A stretch of 62,467 bases of DNA from a virus. The first letter of the stretch is position 1. Every line of letters starts with the position of its first letter. The position numbers and the translations under genes were made by a program. Under the pieces are notes generated by a model. That model searched no databases. It saw only the letters and a list, made by a program, of their open reading frames with translations, and was not told the origin of the DNA. Of the stretch, positions 11,008-56,421 are shown one piece after another. The DNA lies in the IMG/VR virus record IMGVR_UViG_3300022927_000021, positions 1-62,467 of that record; one strand, given 5' to 3'.

Positions 11008-11015
11008 TATAAATA
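11008..11015 (+). promoter_or_regulatory. Late promoter box TATAAATA for gp48
   Basis: Exact box; predicted start about 11021, leader 26 nt to the gp48 ATG at 11047, with SD agaggga at 11036-11042. Confidence 0.6.
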
Positions 11016-26900: not shown

Positions 26901-29900
26901 ACATTGGTAAATTGGAAACTAGAATTAATAATCTAGAATTGATTAGTAGTCTTAACTTACTTGAAAAAGCAACAACCGACCTACTAGTTAAAGATGTTAA
27001 TGGTAATGATAGATTAAAGAATGGATTTATTGTTGATCCATTTAGTGGACATGGCATTGGTAACGTATCAAATGAAGATTATCGTATTGCTGTAGATATG
27101 AAGAGAAAAGTTGCGCGACCAATGGCGCACTCAGATATTGTTTCTTTAGTAGAAACTGTATCTACAGACGCCGAGAGAGCAACATCTGGATACAAAAAAC
27201 ACGTTGATGGTATTATCACTCTTCCATATTCAGAAGTTTCTTATATTAATAATCCATATGCATCAGACACAATGGATGTCAACGCATATAAAGTTTCCGC
27301 CTTTACTGGTGAAATGATACTTACTCCAGCATCAGATGACTGGAAAGATACAACTCGCAGACCTGACCTAATTGTACAAGATGATAACAACTTTGATGCA
27401 ATTCAATTCTTAGCAGATGAAATTGGAGTTGAAGGTACAGTTTGGGAAGGTTGGCAAGATAATTGGTTTGGTGCTACCAATCAAACAACCACAACTGGCG
27501 GTCTTGTCCGTTCTGGCAGATTTATTGGATTTAATACTGTAACAACGACTACCCAAGAGGTTGGACAAATCAACATTGGAACTGCGACTTCTCTTCAAAG
27601 TAGTTATGTAAACAAATCTCTTGGCGATAAGATTGTAGACCTTTCTTTAATTCCTTACATGCGTGAAATTCCAATTCACGTTTCTGTTGGAAACATGAAA
27701 CCGCGCACCAAAGTACAAGCATTCTTTGATAATGTTAATGTTAATGCATATGTTCGTCCAGATGAAAAACTAACAGTAACATCAACAAATCGTACTGATT
27801 TTCAGTTTACCCCAATGGCAGACCCTGGATCACAGGCAGATACAGATAGTGCAAGATTTTGGGATTCATTTGACCAAAATTCTGGGTCATGGTTAAAGCA
27901 ACCATTTGCCGCATTTGGATTTGGTGATGTGGTTCGCAACCAAGTACACACACCAACAACTGTAACTAACGTAACTCAAGTTGGTAATGTAACAACTATC
28001 ACACTTGCAAGCGTGAATGGTATTGCAGTTGGTCATATGGTCACCTTTGCCAACATTGGTGGTGCGATAGAACTTAACTATGATGGTGTTAATGATAACA
28101 GATATTTTGTAGAAAGTGTAAACACTGGAACAAATCAAATTACTATTATTCAAATTGATTATAATAATTCACCTGTATCTGCACTAACCGCATATACCAG
28201 CGGTGGAACTGCTACAAGATTGCAAGCATCTGGTGTTGTCTCTTATCAGAGACCAGATGATCCTAATGGTGCCGCTAACGCTCCTGTTGATATTAATATT
28301 ACAAACAGACAAAATGGATTTGCAATTGGTGACGTTTTAACAGGAACACTTCTTAATAATGCTGGTAATATTAACCAGTGTACAATTACAGCGGTGAATG
28401 ATGTAACAGATGCTACATCAACTGATGTTTATAAGAAACTTCAGAAGTTTGGTGGTGATAAGATTACTGATGATGATGGTTCATTTAATGGCGTATTCGT
28501 TGTACCAAACAATGCATCAACGCAGTTTAGAACTGGTGAGAGAGTATTTAGATTAATAGACAATATATCGAACAATCTAGATTACGGAACACACTCAACC
28601 AAAGCAGAGAGAATTTTCCATGCTTCTGGTCTAAATGAAGAGAGAGAAGAAACAATTCTATCTGTTCGTCAAGCAGAGTTTGTTCGTGACCGCGTACAGC
28701 AAGATAGAGTTGTGACAAGAAGTATTGGTACATCTTCAAGATTTACCCCAACTCGTAGAATTGGACATGATCCACTTGCACAAACTTTTGTAGTTCAAGA
28801 TGTTATTGATGGAGCAATGATTACTAAAGTTGATTTGTTCTTCTCTGCTAGAGGTACTCGCCCATTAATTGTACAGTTACTTAATACTAAAGATGGAAAT
28901 CCATCAGGTAAAATTCTAGCACAGAAAACAATTCCTGCATCAGCAATTAATACTTCTGATGATGCTACTGTATCAACCACTATTTCCTTTGATAGTCCTG
29001 TGTTTATGCAACAAGACGCAACTTATGCGCTTGTTCTTAAAGCAGATGAACCTGGAATGAGAGTATTCTTCTCTGAAGTTGGTAAAACAAATATTGGTGA
29101 TGGTCGAATTGTATCTCAAAATCCGTTAACTGGAACAATGTTCTTATCGCAGAATGGTGGAACATGGACTCCTTTCCAAACTAGAGATTTGAAGTTTACC
29201 TTACATCGCGCCGAGTTTAGTGATGCAGTTGGACAAATTAACTTTCAAAACTCCAGAAATGGTTACACAACTTTAAGAACTGACCCATTTGAAACAACAA
29301 CTGGTTCGAATAAAGTTCGTGTGTATCAAAGAAATCATGGATTTGTTGCTGGCAACAAAGTATCAATTGCTGGAGTACCTAGTGGATTCTATGGTGCAAA
29401 CTCAACAAGCGTTGGTATTCCACACACAGAGTTGAATGGACAACATACAGTTGTTGCTCCAGTTACTACAGACACATATGTCATTGAAGTTACTGAAGCA
29501 AACATCGCGGATGGTGGAGCGTATCCTGGAACTGAAGCAGATATTCTTTCTGCAGATTTTGTTGGGGGTGCTGGAGTTCGCGCAACTAGAAATCTACCAG
29601 TTGACGTTATTACTCCTACTGTTACACAACTAAAGTTTGCAAACACATCATTAACATATGACTTGAATATCGGCAATACAAGCGGAGTATTTACTGGATT
29701 GCAAAATATTCCTGAAAATGATATTACATATTTTACAGATAGAAAATCTATAATGTCATATGATAATCAATCAACGGCAGGATATTCTGCTCAACTAAGA
29801 GCAACATTGTTTAGTTCTAATTCTTTTGTAAGTCCTGTAATTGATAGTCAGAGAGTATCGTTATGTACTGTTGCTAATAGAATTGATAACTTGACTGCAT

Positions 29901-45979: not shown

Positions 45980-47890
45980 ATGGCATTTCAACTTTCACCA
46001 GGCGTTCTAGTACGAGAAATCGACTTGACACAGGTTGTGCCAGCAGTAGCAACCTCTCCAGGTGCCTTTGCGGGTGTATTCCAATGGGGACCTGTAGATG
46101 AAGTAATCAATATTTCTTCAGAGAATGAATTGGTTTCCGTTTTCGGTGAACCAAATGCTGAAACATATACCTACTTCTTTACTGCGGCAAACTTTTTGTC
46201 TTACGGTTCTAACTTACAAGTAGTTAGAGCGGAAACAGGAAATCTAAACGCTACCAGTTCAACTGGTTTTCTAATTAAAAATAGCACACATTATGATAAT
46301 CTAGGTGCATCAGCAATCGCATCTGGAGCAGGTGAGTGGGCGGCGAAGTATCCAGGCACACTTGGTAACTCATTAAGAGTTTCATTGTGTCAGAATGCAG
46401 ACGCTTTTTCAAAAACTGCAATCACAACTGTAACAACATCAAACGCAATTGGTGCAACTACAGTTGATGTTGTATCAGCAACAGACCTCATTATCGGTGA
46501 CTTAGTAGTATTTACTGGTCATAGCACAGAATATGAGATTGTTGGAATTTCAACAAACACACTTACTATCAGAGAAAAGGGAAAGACTACTGGTCTTACC
46601 GCTATTGTTGATGGAACATCGGTACCTGTTAATGTAGAAGCAAGATGGTTCTATCATGCAGATTTTGATGGTCCTCCAGGAACATCAGTACAAGCAACTG
46701 CCAGAGGTGGTTCGGGCGATGAAATTCATATTATCATTGTCGACCAATCAGGAGATATTACAGGTACAGCAAACACAGTACTTGAGAAATTCTCAAATCT
46801 CTCTGTTGCATCAGACGCTAAGAAATCTGATGGAACTGTTAATTACTTTGTAGAGTATATTAATCAATACTCTGCTTACATTTGGTTTGCTGGAAATCAC
46901 AGTGAATTAGATGCAGACGTTGGTGCCGCTACCGGTCTACTTTCAAATGCGTTTACACATACATCTAGAAAACCAGATTATGCATCACTATCAGGTGGTA
47001 CAAATGATAATACACCAACAGACGGTGAATTGCAGACTGCTTATACACACTTTGCAAACGATGAACTCTATGATGTTTCGCTTATTCCAGTTGGACCTGC
47101 ATCAGGTGTAGTTGCTAAGTGGGTCGTAGACAATGTTGCAGAAATTCGTAAGGACTGTATGGTATTCTTATCACCAGAACTTGCTGACGCAACTTCAATT
47201 ACAGCGGCAACCGATATTGTAGACTTTAGAAATGTATCTGCAAATATCAACTCATCATTTGCAGTAATGGACTCTGGATGGAAATATCAATATGACCGTT
47301 ACAGCGATGTATATCGTTACATTCCATTAAACGGCGATGTTGCTGGATGTTGTGTACGCACAGACTTAGTTGCTGATCCATTCTTCTCACCTGCTGGATT
47401 CCAGCGTGGTCAAATTAGAAATGCAGTTCGTTTGGCATACTCACCAAATAAAGCAGATAGAGATACTCTCTATAAGAAGCAAGTTAATCCTGTTGTTTCA
47501 TTCCCTGGACAAGGCGTTGTCTTGTTTGGCGATAAAACAATGTTGACTTCACCTTCAGCATTCGATAGAATTAATGTTCGCAGATTGTTCATTATTCTAG
47601 AAAAAGCAATTGCAACAGCGGCGAAGTTCCAGTTATTTGAATTTAACGATACATTTACTAGAGCAAACTTCAGAAACTTGGTTGAACCATTCTTGCGTGA
47701 TATCCAAGGTCGTAGGGGCATTTACGATTTCAAAGTCGTATGTGATGAAACTAACAATACTCCTGCCGTTATTGATGGTAATGAGTTTAGAGCAGATATC
47801 TTTATTAAACCTGCAAGGTCTATTAACTTTATCACACTAACATTCGTTGCAACAAGAACTGGTATCAGTTTTGAAGAGACTGGCGTTTAA
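45980..47890 (+). CDS. 18: gp18 tail sheath protein
   Basis: 636 aa (T4 659 aa). N-terminus SPGVLVREIDLTQVVPAVATSPGAFAGVFQWGPVDEV; C-terminal FINVRRLFIILEKAI-like segment, ...ATAAKFQLFEFNDTFTRANFRNLVEPFLRDIQGRRGIYDFKVVCDETNNTPAVIDGNEFRADIFIKPARSINFITLTFVATRTG is the highly conserved contractile-sheath core. Between them are variable surface domains. Followed by the tube gene with its own promoter. Confidence 0.96.
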   Translation: MAFQLSPGVLVREIDLTQVVPAVATSPGAFAGVFQWGPVDEVINISSENELVSVFGEPNAETYTYFFTAANFLSYGSNLQVVRAETGNLNATSSTGFLIKNSTHYDNLGASAIASGAGEWAAKYPGTLGNSLRVSLCQNADAFSKTAITTVTTSNAIGATTVDVVSATDLIIGDLVVFTGHSTEYEIVGISTNTLTIREKGKTTGLTAIVDGTSVPVNVEARWFYHADFDGPPGTSVQATARGGSGDEIHIIIVDQSGDITGTANTVLEKFSNLSVASDAKKSDGTVNYFVEYINQYSAYIWFAGNHSELDADVGAATGLLSNAFTHTSRKPDYASLSGGTNDNTPTDGELQTAYTHFANDELYDVSLIPVGPASGVVAKWVVDNVAEIRKDCMVFLSPELADATSITAATDIVDFRNVSANINSSFAVMDSGWKYQYDRYSDVYRYIPLNGDVAGCCVRTDLVADPFFSPAGFQRGQIRNAVRLAYSPNKADRDTLYKKQVNPVVSFPGQGVVLFGDKTMLTSPSAFDRINVRRLFIILEKAIATAAKFQLFEFNDTFTRANFRNLVEPFLRDIQGRRGIYDFKVVCDETNNTPAVIDGNEFRADIFIKPARSINFITLTFVATRTGISFEETGV

Positions 47891-52980: not shown

Positions 52981-52988
52981 TATAAATA
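52981..52988 (+). promoter_or_regulatory. Late promoter box TATAAATA for gp22
   Basis: Exact box; predicted start about 52994, leader 22 nt, SD aggaga. Confidence 0.6.
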
Positions 52989-54221: not shown

Positions 54222-54229
54222 TATAAATA
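54222..54229 (+). promoter_or_regulatory. Late promoter box TATAAATA for gp23
   Basis: Exact box; predicted start about 54235, leader 38 nt, SD aaggaga. Confidence 0.65.
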
Positions 54230-54272: not shown

Positions 54273-55550
54273 ATGTTTTTAACAGAAAACCTTCAGCAGA
54301 AGTGGGGTCCTGTTCTTGAGCATCCTGACATGCCTGCCATTCAGGATTCTTACAAGAAGGCAGTCACAACTGTAATTCTTGAGAACCAAGAAAAAGCAAT
54401 GAAAGAGGAGCGTGGTATGCTCCATGAAGCGGCACCTGCCAACGCCGCTGGCGCTATGCCAGACAGTGGTGGGGTTGCTAAGTTTGACCCAATCCTGATT
54501 TCGCTTGTACGCCGTGCAATGCCTAATCTGATTGCATACGACATCTGTGGTGTTCAACCTATGACTGCTCCAACTGGTCTTATCTTTGCAATGAAGTCTA
54601 CTTACAGCACCCAAGGTGGTACTGAAGCACTCTTCAACGAAGCAGATACAGACTTTGCTGGTGTTGGTACTCACGCTGGTTCAAACCCAGTTGACGGTAC
54701 TCACACAACTGGTACCGCCGCCGCAACCAACCTTGGTGAAGCACTTGGCGATGGCGCTGTTGCAATGGGTAACTCTGGTCAGTTTAACGAAATGGCATTC
54801 TCAATTGAGAAGACCACCGTTACTGCTAAGACCCGCGCATTGAAAGCAGAATACACACTTGAACTTGCACAAGATTTGAAAGCAGTTCACGGTCTTGACG
54901 CTGAAACAGAATTAGCAAACATCTTGTCTGCAGAAATTCTTGCTGAAATCAACCGCGAAGTAGTTCGTACTGTGTACACATCTGCTAAAGCAGGCGCACA
55001 AGCAGGCGCAGTAGCAACTGCTGGTACTTTTGACTTAGACGTTGACAGTAACGGTCGTTGGTCAGTTGAGCGTTTCAAGGGACTCTTGTTCCAAATCGAG
55101 CGCGATGCTAACACAATCGCACAAGACACTCGCCGTGGTAAGGGTAACTTCATCATCACTTCAAGTGATGTTGCATCTGCTCTGTCAATGGCAGGCGTTC
55201 TTGATTACGCACCTGCACTTCAAACTGGTCTCCAGGTTGATGACGCTGGTAACACCTTTGCTGGTGTACTTAACGGTAAGATTAAAGTCTACGTTGATCC
55301 ATATTCAGCAAACAACTCAGATGCTTCACAGTTCTACTGTGTAGGTTATAAGGGTACTTCAGCATATGATGCTGGTCTGTTCTATTGCCCATACGTTCCG
55401 TTACAAATGGTTCGTGCAGTTGGTGAGAATACATTCCAACCTAAGATTGGTTTCAAGACACGCTACGGTATTGTCTCAAATCCATTCACATCTATCAGTG
55501 CTGATAGCAACGCTTACTACAGACTTACTAAAGTTACTAACCTTATGTAA
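54273..55550 (+). CDS. 23: gp23 major capsid protein
   Basis: 425 aa against 521 in T4. RRAMPNLIAYDICGVQPMTAPTGLIFAMKSTY, KTRALKAEYTLELAQDLKAVHGLDAETELANILSAEILAEINREVVRTVY, NFIITSSDVASALSMAGVL and FYCPYVPLQMVRAVGENTFQPKIGFKTRYGI are the T4-like capsid signature. A gp21-type site L-H-E (50-52) before AAPANAAGA is the likely maturation cleavage, removing about 52 residues. Richer in GC-ending codons than its neighbours, as expected for a very highly expressed gene. Strong terminator after it. Confidence 0.97.
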   Translation: MFLTENLQQKWGPVLEHPDMPAIQDSYKKAVTTVILENQEKAMKEERGMLHEAAPANAAGAMPDSGGVAKFDPILISLVRRAMPNLIAYDICGVQPMTAPTGLIFAMKSTYSTQGGTEALFNEADTDFAGVGTHAGSNPVDGTHTTGTAAATNLGEALGDGAVAMGNSGQFNEMAFSIEKTTVTAKTRALKAEYTLELAQDLKAVHGLDAETELANILSAEILAEINREVVRTVYTSAKAGAQAGAVATAGTFDLDVDSNGRWSVERFKGLLFQIERDANTIAQDTRRGKGNFIITSSDVASALSMAGVLDYAPALQTGLQVDDAGNTFAGVLNGKIKVYVDPYSANNSDASQFYCVGYKGTSAYDAGLFYCPYVPLQMVRAVGENTFQPKIGFKTRYGIVSNPFTSISADSNAYYRLTKVTNLM

Positions 55551-55574: not shown

Positions 55575-55602
55575 AAAAGGGTCCTTCGGGACCCTTTTTT
55601 TT
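55575..55602 (+). terminator. Strong UUCG-loop terminator after gp23
   Basis: Stem AAAAGGGTCC (55575-55584)/GGACCCTTTT (55589-55598) closed by the extra-stable TTCG tetraloop, then T's to 55602. Confidence 0.92.
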
Positions 55603-55604
55603 AT

Positions 55605-55612
55605 TATAAATT
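55605..55612 (+). promoter_or_regulatory. Late-type box TATAAATT
   Basis: One mismatch from consensus, just after the gp23 terminator. Predicted start about 55618, 76 nt before the PqqA-like ATG. Confidence 0.3.
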
Positions 55613-55647
55613 CATGATAATACTTAGTCAATTTATCACTCTAATCT

Positions 55648-55655
55648 TATAAGTA
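55648..55655 (+). promoter_or_regulatory. Late-type box TATAAGTA before the PqqA-like gene
   Basis: Same variant as before gp20. Predicted start about 55661, giving a 33-nt leader that includes the SD ggag (55684-55687). Confidence 0.4.
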
Positions 55656-55659
55656 ATAG

Positions 55660-55674
55660 TATGCATTTTGCATA
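55660..55674 (+). repeat. Inverted repeat TATGCA-TTT-TGCATA in the PqqA-like leader
   Basis: Perfect 6-bp arms with a 3-nt spacer, 9 nt before the SD. It could be an operator or an RNA hairpin affecting translation. Confidence 0.4.
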
Positions 55675-55693
55675 AAATTTTATGGAGAAAATT

Positions 55694-55765
55694 ATGTGGA
55701 CTAAACCAACATATACAGAAATGAGATTTGGATTTGAAGTAACAATGTACATAATGAACAAGTAA
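55694..55765 (+). CDS. pqqA: PqqA-like coenzyme PQQ precursor peptide
   Basis: A 23-residue ORF, the exact length of proteobacterial PqqA. It starts MWTKPTYTEMRF and contains G-F-E-V-T-M-Y. Glu15 and Tyr19 are at the same positions as the residues that PqqE cross-links in PqqA (E-x3-Y) to build pyrroloquinoline quinone. Most other positions also match the gammaproteobacterial type (MWTKPAYTD..., GFEVTMY). Strong SD (ggag, 6-nt spacing). The cistron stands alone between two intrinsic terminators, between gp23 and gp3. No pqqB-E genes are visible, so host enzymes would have to process it. Identity by recalled family sequence; function in infection is inference. Confidence 0.85.
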   Translation: MWTKPTYTEMRFGFEVTMYIMNK

Positions 55766-55770
55766 TACTC

Positions 55771-55796
55771 AGAGGGGACTAAATGTCCCCTTTTTT
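55771..55796 (+). terminator. Terminator after the PqqA-like gene
   Basis: Stem AGGGGAC (55773-55779)/GTCCCCT (55785-55791), 5-nt loop, T run to 55796. Confidence 0.88.
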
Positions 55797-55801
55797 AAAT
55801 G

Positions 55802-55809
55802 GATAAATA
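55802..55809 (+). promoter_or_regulatory. Late-type box GATAAATA for gp3
   Basis: One mismatch from consensus, identical to the variant before gp19. Predicted start about 55815, 22-nt leader. Confidence 0.45.
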
Positions 55810-55836
55810 GTAGTATAAACGAATAGGAAAACTACT

Positions 55837-56421
55837 ATGGCATATGACAGCAATGTTAACATTCAGACATGGGTTCAATCAAATCCAGTTCAGCAAAATT
55901 TAAACTATCTTGCACCGTCATCATTTGTGTTTACAATGCAAAATCTTCCAACTGTTGCATTTACATGTCAGACGGCAAATATTCCTAATACTACATTAGG
56001 AATGTCTACACAATTTACAAGAGTTAAAGATACTCCAGTTCCTGGTGACACATTACAATTTGGTGACTTATTAATTACCTTTCTTGTTGATGAGGATATG
56101 GTAAACTATAAAGCACTCTATACATGGATGAGAGCAGTCAGTGGTGACATTGACACAAAAGAGTACACAGATTATATAAACTCTTCTGTGGCGCATCCTG
56201 CGGCGTCTAGTAGTACATTAAAACCTATTGCTCCTACTATGACAGACGCTACAATGACAATTACAAATAGTAGCAATAATGCAAACGTAGAGATACGCTT
56301 CAAAGATTTATTTCCAACTTCATTGGAAGCACTACAGTTTGATATCACAGACACATCAATGCCATACATCACGGCATCTGCATCATTTTCATTCTCTTGG
56401 TTTGATATTGTGAAATTATAA
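55837..56421 (+). CDS. 3: gp3 tail completion / tube terminator protein
   Basis: 194 aa (T4 176 aa). NYLAPSSFVFTMQNLPTVAFTCQTANIPNTTLGMSTQFTRVKDTPVPGDTLQFGDLLITFLVDEDMVNYKALYTWMRAVSG...DATMTITNSSNNANVEIRFKDLFPTSLEALQFD. A tube-like fold, but with the gp3-type FL.DEDM.N(Y).....W(M) motif, and placed after gp23 as in marine T4-likes. It ends the tail tube and joins it to gp15. Confidence 0.8.
   Translation: MAYDSNVNIQTWVQSNPVQQNLNYLAPSSFVFTMQNLPTVAFTCQTANIPNTTLGMSTQFTRVKDTPVPGDTLQFGDLLITFLVDEDMVNYKALYTWMRAVSGDIDTKEYTDYINSSVAHPAASSSTLKPIAPTMTDATMTITNSSNNANVEIRFKDLFPTSLEALQFDITDTSMPYITASASFSFSWFDIVKL

Follow-up and report, generated by a model that had tools for sequence, protein, structure and literature searches.

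Phages may carry a copy of a host energy-metabolism gene and express it during infection, as cyanophages do with psbA. A phage-borne PqqA would differ from that example in being the precursor peptide of a cofactor, rather than an enzyme or a reaction-centre protein. In the synthesis of pyrroloquinoline quinone (PQQ), PqqE together with PqqD cross-links a Glu and a Tyr of PqqA, Glu16 and Tyr20 in M. extorquens, and a protease, PqqB and PqqC then yield PQQ (PMC10906245). The Methylophilaceae have 3 to 12 pqqA copies for one pqqBCDE set, and stand-alone extra copies are usual in this family (PMC4109929), so that precursor dosage is apparently varied by this group of hosts too. Viral PqqA is itself already published (PMC7678222, PMC13188868). 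VP_266, a T4-like virus of Lake Baikal described in 2020 with a predicted Methylophilaceae host, has a PqqA gene for which the same role as here was proposed; that report places a methanol dehydrogenase in the population (PMC7678222), whereas the methanol dehydrogenase model TIGR03075 matched none of the 33 pqqA-bearing records that we searched. Viral pqqA, pqqD and pqqE from reservoir sediment were reported in 2026, with pqqA likewise regarded as an auxiliary gene and assigned to phosphate solubilisation (PMC13188868), and our comparison with these is by description, not by sequence. As far as their accessible text goes, the papers describing OM43 phages (Melnitz, MEP401/402, MEP301) mention no phage-encoded pqq gene. 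In the open-access literature we found neither the spread of pqqA among methylotroph phages nor a link to a riboswitch, the mention of PQQ with a methylophage concerning a medium supplement; these two parts, the occurrence of pqqA across phages of methylotrophs and its arrangement with the riboswitch, appear to be new.

Here we describe a pqqA gene in the window, by which we mean the whole 62,467-base virus record that was analysed; the virus is a T4-like phage of marine origin. The PqqA of Methylophilaceae and Methylophaga (in pqqABCDE operons and as stand-alone copies) has the same size of 23 residues, the same core and the same E15/Y19, and the nearest ORF found in a genome differs from the window pqqA at 11 of 69 bases. 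In contrast to the host gene, the phage copy stands alone, has a late-type box of phage character and adjoins a capsid gene.

The pqqA unit and its signals

The 23-codon ORF encoding MWTKPTYTEMRFGFEVTMYIMNK (Table 1) scores 43.2 bits with PF08042 (E 3.6e-11; curated cut-off 21.1) and 46 bits with TIGR02107, its NCBIfam equivalog (E 3.1e-12; curated cut-off 20), and nothing else in the record matches PqqA. Glu15 and Tyr19 lie near the C-terminus with the spacing E-x-x-x-Y. A preliminary description of this DNA had called the ORF PqqA-like, and had given it 23 codons, a Shine-Dalgarno sequence and the residues Glu15 and Tyr19; our data agree on every point, and nine further viral PqqA peptides that were scored all exceed the TIGR02107 cut-off (9/9). 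Judged from its sequence, this is a genuine pqqA of ordinary size, found in a carrier where one would not expect it. An alternative start at the ATG at 55682, which would give 27 codons, was rejected: the frame is open, but this start lacks a Shine-Dalgarno sequence and the ATG is absent in the relative L323.

Between gp23 and gp19 the unit consists, in this order, of late-type box, 5' hairpin, Shine-Dalgarno sequence, ORF and terminator. The isolation of the gene between two terminators, the late-like box and the TATGCA/TGCATA hairpin in the leader, all of which had been pointed out earlier, were each found again (Table 1). Our terminator consensus scan placed the UUCG hairpin after gp23 only on the minus strand and missed the second hairpin. 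T4-type late units have a TATAAATA-type box before the gene, and in its sequence the box of pqqA is of this type; allowing for A/G differences, it is the same as the gp22 and gp23 boxes. The window has four exact copies of TATAARTAATA (at 11008; at 52981, before gp22; at 54222, before gp23; at 55648, before pqqA), and with at most one mismatch the motif occurs 17 times, against 8.8 expected, a number that one of 100 shuffles reached. On the evidence of this box pqqA would be expressed late. The hairpin that follows probably marks the 5' end of the transcript, with a predicted length of about 137 bases (about 55660-55796), and a hairpin of changed sequence stands at the equivalent place in the relatives L323 and L314. 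A minus-strand sigma-70-like site (55631-55603, 11/12 matches) was dropped because it is absent in the relatives L311, L313, L323 and L324.

Table 1. Features of the pqqA region in the window, and the riboswitch in related records.
Feature	Position	Strand	Basis or remark
gp23, major capsid protein	54273-55550	+	phrog_138, 516 bits; upstream neighbour of pqqA
UUCG terminator 3' of gp23	hairpin 55575-55594, T-run to 55602	+	read from sequence
Late-type box TATAAGTAATA	55648-55658	+	46 bases 5' of pqqA ATG
Hairpin TATGCA-TTT-TGCATA	55660-55674	+	read in sequence and predicted fold
Junction, site of a 142-base block in relatives, absent from window	55674-55679	+	L312 compared with window
pqqA Shine-Dalgarno GGAG	55684-55687	+	six bases 5' of ATG; read from sequence
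pqqA, 23 codons, MWTKPTYTEMRFGFEVTMYIMNK	55694-55765	+	PF08042 and TIGR02107 above curated cut-offs
Glu15 codon of pqqA	55736-55738	+	
Tyr19 codon of pqqA	55748-55750	+	
Second terminator, 3' of pqqA	hairpin 55772-55792, T-run to 55796	+	read from sequence; hairpin in predicted fold
Late-type box GATAAATAGTAGTA of gp19	55802-55815	+	
gp19, tail tube	55837-56421	+	phrog_45, 119.7 bits; downstream neighbour of pqqA
RF01739 riboswitch in window lineage	L311 443-495; L312 3357-3409; L313 2167-2219; L324 3700-3752		

In a different T4-like lineage (L262 and L299), the pqqA at the gp23-gp19 junction immediately follows a TATAAATAGTAGTA box and ends one base ahead of gp19, and an additional ORF beginning MTTITKTEKVLNALIDGAELTAKQISARYGV lies within the same gap.

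Distribution among phages

A tblastn search with the PqqA peptide against 50,697 phage records (E up to 10) matched 12 records: nine are from phages of Methylophilales/Methylophilaceae, one is from a spring podovirus and two look bacterial. The phages are Venkman, P19250A, MEP301, MEP401, MEP402, Melnitz (four records) and the uncultured spring podovirus MW202481; they are of different types, and the position of the gene differs among them. The peptides of Venkman, P19250A, MEP301, MEP401/402, Melnitz and MW202481 are all above the TIGR02107 cut-off, and Glu15 is kept in the seven phage genomes found by this search (7/7), which used no pattern. NCBI taxonomy lists more Methylophilales/Methylophilaceae phages, including HIM624-A, phIMB624-A, Venkman EXVC038S, MEP431-434, MG-MTP1 and RSA-MFP1. 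The other two matches are 'Acinetobacter phage' records; in one of these (L128, CAKLQF020000010.1, 'Acinetobacter phage MD-2021a') a pqqB-C-D-radical-SAM operon lies beside a polyphosphate kinase gene, and the record looks bacterial.

None of the ten phage matches is labelled PqqA: five have no annotation at the site and five have a 'hypothetical protein'. The two of these five annotations that were opened, in Melnitz EXVC044M (L126 2495-2566) and MW202481 (L127 2119-2187), both run antisense to the pqqA ORF, and may therefore be mis-called. With only 23 codons, pqqA is passed over by automatic annotation. The Lake Baikal study states that P19250A encodes none of its auxiliary genes (PMC7678222), whereas we find in P19250A an unannotated pqqA-like ORF at 28085-28153.

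Viral contigs were scanned with two degenerate DNA patterns, which returned at least 120 and at least 119 stretches. The patterns force several codons, Glu15 in both scans and Tyr19 in the second, and forced positions were for this reason not counted as evidence from the scanned loci. Together with the phage records and the loci of the window lineage, the scans give at least 231 viral pqqA loci in 15 groups by flanking DNA, with some contigs present twice (for example L287/L324, L288/L313 and L241/L307); Melnitz, whose PqqA begins MKWTKP, and MEP301, which has Ser4, fall outside the pattern and are excluded from the 231. Adjoining pqqB-E genes were found at none of the 231 viral loci among the matches listed, and the 25 control loci that do have pqqB-E are all of bacterial type. 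Such adjacency is usual for one host copy of pqqA and is not required of extra copies. The lack of pqqB-E at these viral loci and of TIGR03075 in all 33 records searched suggests that the phages supply the precursor only.

Among the matches listed, 221 loci were examined for neighbours, and in 74 of the 207 with a callable upstream gene a capsid gene lies closest on that side. As the loci are unevenly sampled, this is not a rate; what matters is that the capsid genes come from three unrelated families. These are the phrog_267 type (51 loci), the gp23 type (13) and the phrog_371 type (10), each family being assigned from one representative per group, with the gp23 group also checked separately. 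At five more loci among the matches listed, pqqA is followed by a convergently oriented gp23-type gene.

Constraint on the viral peptide

All 231 viral loci among the matches listed have an ORF of 23 codons, a figure to be read with the fact that the patterns favour intact ORFs. Length and codons 18-23 were unconstrained in the first scan, and among the matches listed from it both the length of 23 and Tyr19 are kept in 120 of 120, as is a Shine-Dalgarno-like motif (120/120). Position 12, where the pattern allowed F, L, I, M and V, is F in all 120 first-scan loci among the matches listed; it is also F in Methylophilaceae and Methylophaga genomes, where the pattern of that scan forced it. Residue 4 is less strict, with K in 229 and T in 2 of the 231 loci among the matches listed and S in MEP301, and Lys4 is thus not invariant.

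Selection was estimated from 106 distinct ORFs of the 120 first-scan loci among the matches listed, a scope that applies to all of the following ratios. The free codons 18-23 have a pN/pS of 0.17 (pN 0.16, pS 0.93, synonymous change being near saturation), the free N-terminal codons 3, 6, 7 and 8 are weakly constrained at 0.53, and the four and the six codons pooled give 0.29. This pattern bears on two other readings of the gene. The short transcript might be conserved as a regulatory RNA in which the ORF is incidental: it has two hairpins, and its predicted fold is better than that of shuffled sequences (z -2.6, with 4 of 200 shuffles as good). The stability of the fold comes, however, from the two hairpins, one of which is the terminator, and the excess of synonymous over non-synonymous change in codons 18-23 is that of a translated peptide, which makes this reading very improbable. 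A phage peptide could instead act as a decoy that sequesters PqqD or PqqE and reduces PQQ synthesis by the host, and with a Kd of 0.39 uM for PqqA and PqqD in M. extorquens (PMC10906245) an excess of peptide could saturate PqqD. A decoy would have no need of the reactive pair, yet Tyr19 is kept in 120/120 loci where it was free to vary, among the matches listed, and Glu15 is kept where no pattern was applied; moreover, it is the PqqD-binding N-terminal side that is the less conserved, at the four codons with a ratio of 0.53. We regard a decoy function as quite improbable. Since Tyr19 and length are kept where free to vary, both readings appear weaker than that of a substrate for PQQ synthesis.

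Presence and absence in the window lineage

Records of the window lineage were selected by gp19, independently of pqqA (30 loci). Besides the window, ten records have pqqA at the gp23-gp19 junction; the ORF is open in all of them (11/11 with the window, 10/10 without it), so that the decay in related phages which would have spoken against the preliminary description is not seen, and Glu15 is kept in 11/11. One of them, L314, has MWTTP in place of MWTKP. In nine of nine close relatives with gp23 at 87-90%, pqqA is missing from the junction, which then has a gap of about 94-102 bases and one terminator, and none was found elsewhere in the available sequence of these nine, the longest of which have 125,860, 102,947 and 70,274 bases. 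Fragmentary records and differing hosts may explain these relatives. Members of the lineage thus either have the cassette at this one site or lack it cleanly.

Presence and absence at the same site among close relatives is also what would be seen if pqqA were a passenger, repeatedly taken from hosts, weakly selected and of little effect on infection, and the similar terminators that flank the gene could recombine. Against this, no truncated or extended ORF was seen in 231 loci among the matches listed, where the patterns favour intact ones; the ten gene-bearing records selected by gp19 are all intact (10/10), and among the matches listed pN/pS is 0.17 at codons 18-23. It is therefore unlikely that the gene is a mere passenger.

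That the gene hints at the host, as had been suggested, is supported. A methylotroph is indicated by nine of the 12 tblastn matches, which are Methylophilales/Methylophilaceae phages, and by the PqqA of Methylophilaceae and Methylophaga. The closest named phages by gp23 are Melnitz, an OM43 phage (68.3% identity), and HTVC008M, a SAR11 phage (67.3%), so that the capsid is about equally near to both and a methylotroph is a candidate host only. The window has no tRNA genes.

A predicted role in PQQ supply

We consider it likely that this is a genuine phage-borne pqqA in a one-gene unit, used as an auxiliary metabolic gene that raises the supply of PQQ precursor. The HMM matches, the kept Tyr19 and length, purifying selection, the late-type box and the position next to a capsid gene argue for this reading, and the gene is host-derived and kept intact in lytic phage genomes, as is expected of an auxiliary metabolic gene. 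Counted against it were the nine of nine relatives without pqqA, the variable Lys4 and the ratio of 0.53 at codons 3, 6, 7 and 8. Late in infection, a short and stable mRNA would be translated into PqqA, which PqqD and PqqE of the host, a protease, PqqB and PqqC would convert into PQQ. In a methylotrophic host, PQQ-dependent methanol dehydrogenase could thereby be kept supplied with its cofactor during the shut-off of host genes, and sustained methanol oxidation would feed phage production. In acetic acid bacteria PQQ increases when pqqA or portions of its operon are overexpressed, and in Gluconobacter overexpression of pqqB increased PQQ more than that of pqqA (PMC7936290), from which it follows that the precursor need not be limiting. 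The proposal that the phage supplies substrate to the host pathway was already made in the preliminary description; its elements of family, isolation, late-type box, intactness in relatives and host hint stand, and processing of the peptide stays a prediction.

If this reading is correct, many lytic phages of methanol oxidisers supply a ribosomally made cofactor precursor rather than an enzyme, and so steer host metabolism at a lower cost than with the auxiliary enzymes already known. Its role could be tested directly, as culturable phages of OM43 and LD28 carry pqqA (Venkman, MEP301, MEP401, MEP402, P19250A and Melnitz).

A glutamine riboswitch and micro-ORF upstream of pqqA

Of the 11 records in the lineage that have pqqA, four (L311, L312, L313 and L324) also have a glutamine riboswitch, RF01739, 108 bases before pqqA (Table 1), and in the loci scanned RF01739 scores 53-61 bits against 35. 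The window has no Rfam match at the gathering score and thus no such aptamer upstream of its pqqA. Compared with L312, whose gp23 is 97% identical and whose pqqA ORF is identical, the window differs by a 142-base block that in L312 contains the riboswitch and a micro-ORF of 37 codons. As both elements occur in relatives and not in the window, the preliminary description did not include them. The block had no match when searched against phage records, and the micro-ORF peptide had none in Pfam, PHROGs or phage records.

The same layout recurs in podophage-type loci with a phrog_267 capsid gene, where 37 of 51 among the matches listed have a riboswitch 106-111 bases before pqqA and the other 14 do not match the riboswitch pattern. 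Their micro-ORF has 31-51 codons and starts M-[STL]-W or similar (for example L066, L067, L092 and L250), and by eye the micro-ORF in the window lineage (MLWTQYRRQKDLESYNKQQVV...) looks similar to its podophage counterpart (MSWTDYCRKREIDNYKKQQLL...). In L311, L312, L313 and L324 too, the micro-ORF has a W close to its beginning and overlaps the start of pqqA. In all 36 strict-pattern loci the micro-ORF stops beyond the start of pqqA, by 11 bases in 20 and by 31 bases in 12, and in four of the 36 it is fused in frame to pqqA; the overlap of its stop with the pqqA start suggests translational coupling. Two further groups, with one locus each (L043 and L298), have a riboswitch and micro-ORF 175 and 212 bases upstream of a pqqA with its own box and Shine-Dalgarno sequence. 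The Shine-Dalgarno sequence of the micro-ORF is paired in predicted folds both with and without the P1 helix, which would be compatible with either ON or OFF control. Several results speak against a general link between riboswitch and pqqA. The riboswitch is absent from 18 of 19 scanned pqqA loci of other groups and from 32 of 36 records of another scan, and in L102 it lies downstream of pqqA. Conversely, among 87 newly fetched riboswitch loci, four of which had fewer than 300 bases downstream, pqqA lies within 300 bases in 15.

The layout of glutamine riboswitch and micro-ORF before pqqA appears to be new in phages. In some phages it may couple the amount of precursor to nitrogen status, a control that the window phage would lack. 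We put forward only tentatively, as a possibility we think doubtful, that riboswitch, W-motif micro-ORF and pqqA form a methylotroph-phage cassette that moves horizontally behind unrelated capsid genes, in which glutamine would set the amount of PQQ precursor and thus methanol oxidation, with the micro-ORF peptide as an effector, and of which the window would be a derivative without the control block that makes precursor unconditionally. A riboswitch link of this kind, if true, would place a metabolite sensor before a cofactor-precursor gene in phages, apparently for the first time, and would bear on what the glutamine riboswitches of marine phages control.

We note that our search also recovered RF01739 in Melnitz (46398) and Mosig (92197), the riboswitches of marine myophages described previously (PMC9004378) and of the same aptamer family as those reported here. 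The Melnitz riboswitch is, however, about 30 kb from the pqqA of that phage, in contrast to the 106-111 bases of the window lineage and the podophage-type loci. The micro-ORF pattern matched L349, L351 and L352 and missed L350 (Mosig). Tandem glutamine riboswitches stand before a W-motif micro-ORF in L100 (3696-3808, minus strand) and L374 (1006-1117, plus strand), and the pair in L100 has no pqqA behind it. An unlike ORF of about 65 residues (with the conserved pattern GTSGY...KSTNNW; L354, L355, L358, L362 and others) is preceded by 36 of 128 viral glutamine riboswitch matches. The Melnitz riboswitch itself (46398-46446; L349 1501-1549) is followed by a 32-codon ORF, MTLYQQWCYLKAQKEYRRRQKILMYFRIRLKG, preceded by GGGGAGAGTG, and this ORF is possibly the gene that the riboswitch controls.
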